Source: Natronorubrum texcoconense
GTDB taxonomy: Archaea > Halobacteriota > Halobacteria > Halobacteriales > Natrialbaceae
Length of the DNA stretch: 64,000 bases
Direction: 5' to 3'
Assembly: GCF_900100335.1 (NCBI RefSeq)
Contig: NZ_FNFE01000008.1
Span: 62,001-126,000, forward strand
This document shows positions 56,691 through 58,370 of the stretch, piece after piece. Within the stretch, counting starts at the first letter, position 1. The number at the start of each line of letters is the position of its first letter. The notes below the pieces were generated by a model that searched no databases, was not told the DNA's origin, and saw nothing but the letters and a program-made list of their open reading frames with translations. Position numbers and translations under genes: made by a program.

Positions 56691-56803
56691 CTCGAGAGTC
56701 GGTATTCAATGCGGTGTCAGATATCGTAGCGACAAAGCCCACCCGTCCGGTTACCAAAAAAGAGTCGCCGACCAACAATTGGACACACCTTTGAACCACA
56801 TCA

Positions 56804-58012
56804 CTAGTCCAGCATCGTTCGCACCGAGCGATGGACACCCACCGTCTCAATCGTCTCGTCTAACGCATCAAGGACGGCAATCAAATCCTGGCTCAACTCA
56901 AACGTCTTGTACTGTCCCCCAGAGCTCCCTTCGTTCCGCTTTTCAGCGCTGACCAATCCTAGCATCTCGAGTTCATCGAGATGGTCGTGCATCCATCGAC
57001 TCGTCAGCGGATCGTGTCCAGCCCCTCCACAAAACATCTCGTACCGGCGATACAAATCACGAGATCGGACGGGGGAGTCACCCGACGAAACGTACGATGC
57101 CAGTGCATAAAGCAGAATTTTCTCGTGCGTATTGAGCCCTAAAATCCCGCGCGTAATCTCCTCTTCTTGAAGAAGACCACGACCGCGACGAACGTGCTCT
57201 TCGCGAACCATATCAGCATCACCTTCATGCGCGACATCTCCGGCCTTCAACAGGAGGTCAAGAGCTTTCCGCGCATCGCCGGACTCCTGCGCTCCGAACG
57301 CAGCACACAATGGAATGACACCGTTCTCGAGAACGTCGTCCTGAAACGCAATGGATTGACGCTGACGCAGCACTTCCTCTAGTTCGTCAGCGGTGTACGC
57401 CGGAAAGTTGATACTCCGTTCACAGAGACTGGATCGAACCTTCGGGGAGAGAGTATCCCGATAAGTCAGGTCGTTACTGATTCCAACGACGCTAACGCGT
57501 GCATTACTGATGTTGTCGTTTTCTCGCGCTCGAGAAAGCTGATAGAGTAGGGAGTCGTCTTGGAGGTGGTCGATTTCGTCGAGGACTAAAATGATGAGTC
57601 CACCGTGATCGTCGAACGAGTCCCACATCAGATCGTAAACTTTGGATCGAGGATGGCCAGTCTCGCTAATTTTGTCATCACGGAAAGAGTTCACGAGTTC
57701 GACGGCTACTCGATAACTGGTATCAGCACCGTCACAGTTGACAACGTGAGTATTAATCGTAACATCGTGTTGTTCGCTGGCGTCCTCGAGACGGTCAAGC
57801 AAGAATTTGGTGGCCGCAGTCTTTCCGACCCCTGTTTTTCCGTATAAAAAGATGTTATCAGGCTGGCTCGCGTTGATCGCAGGCTAGAGCGCAGCGTGGT
57901 ATTCCTCGAGTTCGTCGTCCCTTCCGACCATTTCCTCGGGTGTGTAATCATCCAACAGAGCGTTCCGATTTTGAAAAGGGAAGTTCCCCGGAGTGAAGGC
58001 GAATCGAGTCAT
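56804..58012 (-). pseudogene. orc: orc1/cdc6 initiator gene interrupted by an amber codon
   Basis: One frame of 402 sense-codon positions begins MTRFAFTPGNFPFQNRNALL and continues to 56804, apart from a single TAG at 57884-57886 (position 43, where a Gln such as LQPAIN is expected). After it the frame gives PAINASQPDNIFLYGKTG, Walker A GKTGVGKT (58-65), Walker B DEID (about 145-148), sensor regions and a C-terminal winged helix (EKILLYALASYVS, RSRDLYRRYEMFC). A CAG to TAG change explains it. No later start before Walker A is likely; an internal start at 57802 would lack Walker A. It lies beside an origin-like region. Confidence 0.88.
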
Positions 58013-58048: not shown

Positions 58049-58066
58049 CGACCACCCGTTCGAGTG
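58049..58066 (-). repeat. ORB-like repeat 1 (outer left)
   Basis: On the minus strand CACTCGAACGGGTGGTCG. It shares CACTCGAAC with three others and pairs best with copy 4 (58353). Confidence 0.75.
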
Positions 58067-58109
58067 ATTCGACTGGGTGGTGATGTATATAAAAGCCGTT
58101 GTACCCAGA

Positions 58110-58127
58110 GACCCCATCGTTCGAGTG
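58110..58127 (-). repeat. ORB-like repeat 2 (inner left)
   Basis: On the minus strand CACTCGAACGATGGGGTC, one mismatch in 18 nt from copy 3 on the plus strand. The trailing G-string points away from the AT-rich core. Confidence 0.75.
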
Positions 58128-58310
58128 TATTCATTTGAATAGAGGAAGGAAAGAATATGTATTAATACTACCACAAAAGGAAATTTTATTTTGGTAGATG
58201 ATAAAACGCAGCTATACTAGCGACAGGGTGGCATCGTAGAGAGTGTTGAAGCGTAGTATATCAGCATGGGTGGTTAACTATTTTCTGAGAGAGCGAACTT
58301 TCAAAGGATT

Positions 58311-58328
58311 CACTCGAACGACGGGGTC
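58311..58328 (+). repeat. ORB-like repeat 3 (inner right)
   Basis: CACTCGAACGACGGGGTC, the inverted partner of copy 2. It is preceded by TTCAAA, as is copy 2, which extends the match. Confidence 0.75.
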
Positions 58329-58352
58329 CCCGTGTATATAAACAAAACCACT

Positions 58353-58370
58353 CACTCGAACAGGTGGTAT
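58353..58370 (+). repeat. ORB-like repeat 4 (outer right)
   Basis: CACTCGAACAGGTGGTAT, inverted partner of copy 1 with the shared GGTGGT continuation. Confidence 0.75.

Follow-up and report, generated by a model that had tools for sequence, protein, structure and literature searches.

A probable recent amber mutation in an orc1/cdc6 gene, one of three on a Natronorubrum texcoconense plasmid, beside an origin that is probably silent

An interrupted orc1/cdc6 gene adjoins a candidate origin

The DNA analysed here (64,000 nucleotides, referred to as the window) comprises positions 62001-126000 of C8, a 208,817-bp contig of the eleven-contig genome of Natronorubrum texcoconense. It carries an orc1/cdc6 gene with a single interruption, adjoined by inverted repeats around an AT-rich stretch. 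The features of the locus, in window coordinates, are as follows.

56804-58012, minus strand: orc1/cdc6 reading frame, 402 codons with one interruption (translation and domain matches)
57884-57886, minus strand: TAG in frame (codon 43), where the sister species has CAG
57818-57841, minus strand: Walker A codons, GKTGVGKT (codons 58-65), between the stop and the earliest usable restart codon
57800-57802, minus strand: TTG, the earliest in-frame ATG, GTG or TTG past the stop; a start here leaves out Walker A
56870-57145, minus strand: Cdc6 C-terminal winged-helix domain, intact
56804-56806, minus strand: TAG terminator, derived from TCG; the TGA of the ancestral frame comes next, at 56801-56803
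58051-58067, no strand assigned: origin-recognition-box-like repeat adjoining orc (ACCACCCGTTCGAGTGA); inverted partner at 58352-58368
58102-58135, no strand assigned: origin-recognition-box-like repeat; inverted partner at 58303-58336
58136-58302, no strand assigned: AT-rich stretch between the inverted repeats, a candidate unwinding element (about 39-40% G+C against 65-70% around it)
58303-58336, no strand assigned: origin-recognition-box-like repeat, beyond the AT-rich stretch as seen from orc
58345-58368, no strand assigned: outermost origin-recognition-box-like repeat

Translation of the frame from 58012 to 56804 bore out the original prediction of a single in-frame amber codon at residue 43, this TAG being the only stop inside the frame. 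The Walker A motif follows 15 codons later, and the frame is otherwise intact, as had also been proposed: it retains both Walker motifs (Walker B as VLDE) together with the Cdc6 lid domain and the winged-helix domain (motifs, with Pfam matches to PF22703, PF09079 and AAA), and past the stop the NCBIfam profile TIGR02928 is matched with 388 bits against a cut-off of 181.3. In this score, in its AAA+ ATPase with Walker A and Walker B motifs, in its lid and in its winged helix the encoded protein has the characters of an archaeal Orc1/Cdc6 initiator. What the gene lacks is a coding frame open all the way from the conserved start: the TAG at codon 43 breaks it, and the relatives have it whole.

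Since the TTG at 57802 lies beyond the Walker A motif, a restart downstream of the stop cannot yield an ATP-binding protein. It does open a 332-codon frame that keeps Walker B, the lid and the winged helix, and a shortened Orc made from it might bind the origin repeats and repress the origin or its own gene. We give this idea very little credence, as neither a conserved start nor promoter evidence was found at this TTG, the mutation is young (see below) and no relative has such a form.

The terminator of the gene is a second derived TAG (TCG to TAG), one codon ahead of the ancestral TGA (56801-56806). Both TAG codons were gained by orc on its own branch, each within a CTAG tetramer. This tetramer is strongly depleted, with 23 occurrences in the window against about 62 expected from trinucleotide counts, and 88 against 216 over the whole of contig C8.

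Upstream of orc lie four repeats of the type TCACTCGAACG(A/G)(C/T)GGGG, arranged as pairs inverted round the AT-rich stretch (58051-58067 with 58345-58368, and 58102-58135 with 58303-58336). Inverted repeats flanking an AT-rich stretch beside an orc gene are the arrangement of an orc/cdc6-linked haloarchaeal origin; it is kept in the sister species and partly in Haloterrigena sp. KLK7. A search allowing up to two mismatches found no match to these repeats beside the other orc genes. The repeats by the orc gene at C8:145950 (ACACTGGAACGGGGGGT) show, on inspection by eye, a distant resemblance with four mismatches, and on this likeness weak recognition in trans between that Orc and the present candidate origin is conceivable.

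The locus lies on a conserved replicon

When wrapped round its ends, contig C8 is collinear with a contig of 214,970 bp from the sister species, which belongs to the same genus. Over most of its length C8 also has the gene order of plasmid unnamed3, a circle of 211,846 bp from Haloterrigena sp. KLK7. From this collinearity and gene order, C8 is very probably a complete plasmid of the unnamed3 kind. On all three, orc has the same position and the same neighbours, with an enoyl-CoA hydratase-related gene on one side and a pyrimidinone-phosphate reductase gene on the other. No plasmid near-identical to C8 was found in the plasmid collection.

An Orc1/Cdc6 in a 570-codon open frame, with an insertion of about 110 residues after the Walker A region and before Walker B, is encoded at G000:C9:4609-6036 and at C11:103828-105255. 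Matches of equal score and equal spacing near the start of C9 and the end of C11 suggest a contig overlap or a shared terminal repeat.

Codon 43 is glutamine in nearly all orthologues

The orthologue alignment that had been proposed as a check gave a consistent picture. The sister-species gene, 97% identical at the protein level, is intact and has CAG at codon 43; that of Haloterrigena sp. KLK7, 88% identical, has CAA; and more distant orthologues, at 82%, 74-76% and about 50-63% identity, are all open. Across 64 orthologue rows, in which some loci are entered twice so that independent genes are somewhat fewer, codon 43 is Gln in 60, Leu in two, the present stop in one and a gap in one, and no other row has an internal stop. 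Glutamine is thus found in 60 of the 62 resolved relatives, both Leu rows being the same Halorussus aquaticus gene, and on these alignments the residue is nearly invariant, as the original prediction of a replaced conserved Gln had it. That prediction had also named a circumstance that would count against it, namely that relatives all lack the upstream 42 codons; the first 42 codons are conserved among them. Every orthologue from a named genome is intact, and this orc lineage is present in only 5 of the 125 genomes of the family.

A lone substitution within an otherwise perfect frame is also what a sequencing or assembly error would look like, with a sense codon in the cell and an intact orc gene. 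We regard such an error as unlikely, if the most plausible of the alternatives. In the comparison of C8 with the sister replicon, which took in about 117 genes, the TAG at codon 43 is the only credible mid-gene stop once artefacts lying upstream of starts or on the wrong strand are removed. Other apparent stops and frameshifts (in an AMP-binding enzyme, a DUF7342 protein, glnA and others) fell upstream of true starts, on the wrong strand or in doubtful frames; the single apparent frameshift, in glnA, sits upstream of the true start. Consensus substitution errors are, moreover, rare set against the real substitutions on the own branch of orc, which number roughly 31. With no other mid-gene stop on C8, the contig is not error-ridden, nor is the plasmid in general decay.

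TAG is a terminator in this genome

TAG terminates 27 of the 120 genes of C8. For 24 of them the alignment with the sister species reaches the end of the gene, and in all 24 the sister gene also stops no more than two codons away. By this comparison TAG is a genuine terminator in N. texcoconense, and genome-wide reassignment was ruled out. The search for an amber-suppressor tRNA, also suggested with the original prediction, gave none: no CTA anticodon occurs among the 43 Rfam tRNA matches of the genome. ARAGORN named 41 of them, and inspection by eye gave Asn and Met for the other two, which bear introns. A pattern search combining an amber-type anticodon arm with a T arm returned only a tRNA-Arg and non-tRNA sequence. 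A tRNA-Leu listed with anticodon 'tag' reads CUA, and hence is not a suppressor. Since tRNA-Trp is absent from the list, long-intron tRNAs, or a strongly aberrant suppressor, may escape such searches. No pyrrolysyl-tRNA synthetase (PylS) scored above cut-off in the genome, the N-terminal domain profile being wholly absent; the C-terminal PylS and PylB profiles matched only below cut-off, as they do in most control genomes, and pyrrolysine decoding was rejected.

Leaky or regulated readthrough, in which a near-cognate tRNA inserts Gln or another residue and so supplies a little full-length initiator, was considered as well. It would account for the conserved frame beyond the stop; Leu is tolerated at position 43 in one Halorussus orthologue, so that a misread residue might function, and initiators may be needed in few copies. 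Against it, relatives have no stop here, which is not what a conserved recoding site would show, and neither a CTA anticodon (43 Rfam tRNA matches) nor PylS was found. A 2021 review of recoding in archaea covers selenocysteine and pyrrolysine, and the passages found in it on haloarchaea deal with viral frameshifting (PMC8211752). Readthrough therefore seems improbable, roughly half as credible as a sequencing error. More improbable again is its extension in which low-level near-cognate reading turns the stop into a brake on dosage for one of the plasmid's origins; the second TAG would then be read in part as well. The gene resembles the pyrrolysine-decoding genes of archaea in having an in-frame TAG inside an otherwise conserved frame. 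It differs from them in that neither PylS nor a CTA-anticodon tRNA was found, in not being a methylamine methyltransferase and in that its stop is not conserved in relatives. The amber codon of orc is no evidence for recoding in haloarchaea.

Substitution counts point to a very young stop

About 72 synonymous changes and 11 changes of amino acid separate orc from the sister-species gene (dS 0.32, dN/dS 0.039), and orc ranks 11th in constraint among 117 plasmid genes. When the changes were polarised with KLK7, 27 synonymous changes and three amino-acid replacements, plus the stop, fell on the gene's own branch, and 31 synonymous changes and four replacements on that of the sister. So few replacements relative to synonymous changes indicate that the frame was selected until very recently; amino-acid changes would be far more numerous had selection been absent for much of the branch. 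The codons on either side of the stop still look constrained, which argues that the mutation is very young. As a rough estimate from these counts, the stop may date to about the last tenth of the branch or less. The substitution numbers date the stop and do not prove that function is lost, as they would be equally expected if a slight amount of full-length protein were made.

The plasmid carries two other intact orc genes

Intact orc paralogues, which the original prediction had proposed to look for, are present: C8 carries two, at 162247-163449 and at 145950. The former is 99.5% identical to its counterpart in the sister species and 96% to that of KLK7, and has several clean repeats around it; the TAG that it contains is its normal terminator, and it is not a second orc with an internal stop. 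The suggestion that, if the amber codon is real, the adjacent origin has no intact linked initiator was supported. The accompanying one, of supply in trans, found no support as far as a close paralogue is concerned, the closest in the genome (C1:4235-5374) being 50% identical, on another contig and preceded by different repeats.

Of its relative of the C8:145950 orc, KLK7 (NZ_CP149790.1) retains just 59 C-terminal residues (138-314), a second orc loss on this plasmid type. The sister replicon has an extra orc (G009:C4:51200-52363), 46% identical to the C8:162247 orc and with no close counterpart on C8; KLK7 has a gene of the same kind at 76356-77498. The KLK7 remnant and the orc found in the sister and not on C8 show that orc genes turn over on this plasmid type.

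A freshly orphaned origin and its known counterparts

Of the three origins suggested for the amber codon (nonsense mutation, sequencing error or readthrough), a nonsense mutation is favoured by the single transition that separates it from the CAG of the sister species, by the undiminished conservation of the frame, by the searches for machinery to decode TAG, which found none, by the lack of any break in the other full-length orthologues examined and by the synteny of the locus on all three plasmids. The explanation that we consider likely, with good though not full confidence, is that a recent C-to-T change inactivated one of three plasmid orc1/cdc6 genes, that its origin is probably silent and that the other orc genes maintain the plasmid. 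A CAG codon would have become TAG, very recently, on this Haloterrigena-type plasmid of about 209 kb; translation would stop after 42 codons, ahead of Walker A, and no ATP-binding initiator would be made. The adjacent origin retains its repeats and probably fires no longer. We infer that other origins have taken over, the plasmid being kept most likely by the strongly conserved orc at C8:162247-163449 with its own clear repeats. Against this explanation, the TAG that ends the gene is new as well, a coincidence under a nonsense mutation.

On a nonsense mutation, the locus looks like the ordinary early decay of an initiator gene on a plasmid. It would be a small, clean example of haloarchaeal replicons losing redundant origins, in which the initiator is struck first, by a point mutation, and the repeats are still intact; a freshly orphaned origin may also offer a natural test of whether the initiator of another origin can act in trans.

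Silent origins with disrupted orc genes next to them are already on record for Haloarcula hispanica (PMC4441112). In that species individual origins rely on the cdc6 gene located with them, and a single active pair is enough for a replicon (PMC3936714); the nonfunctional origins bear disrupted cdc6 genes (PMC4441112). Its oriC4-cdc6G and oriC5-cdc6H resemble the locus described here in being extra origins of a secondary replicon, with recognisable repeats and a disrupted initiator, on a replicon that is likewise maintained by other origin-cdc6 pairs (PMC4441112). They differ in the damage, which in oriC4 and oriC5 is loss of the promoter and 5' coding region, or loss of the winged helix by rearrangement, and here is one point mutation (PMC4441112). 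In Haloferax mediterranei, oriC4-cdc6H and oriP1-cdc6L are likewise secondary inverted-repeat origins, likely unused while others are active (PMC4595724). Those dormant origins have intact initiators and can be activated, whereas the origin here is without an intact linked initiator (PMC4595724).
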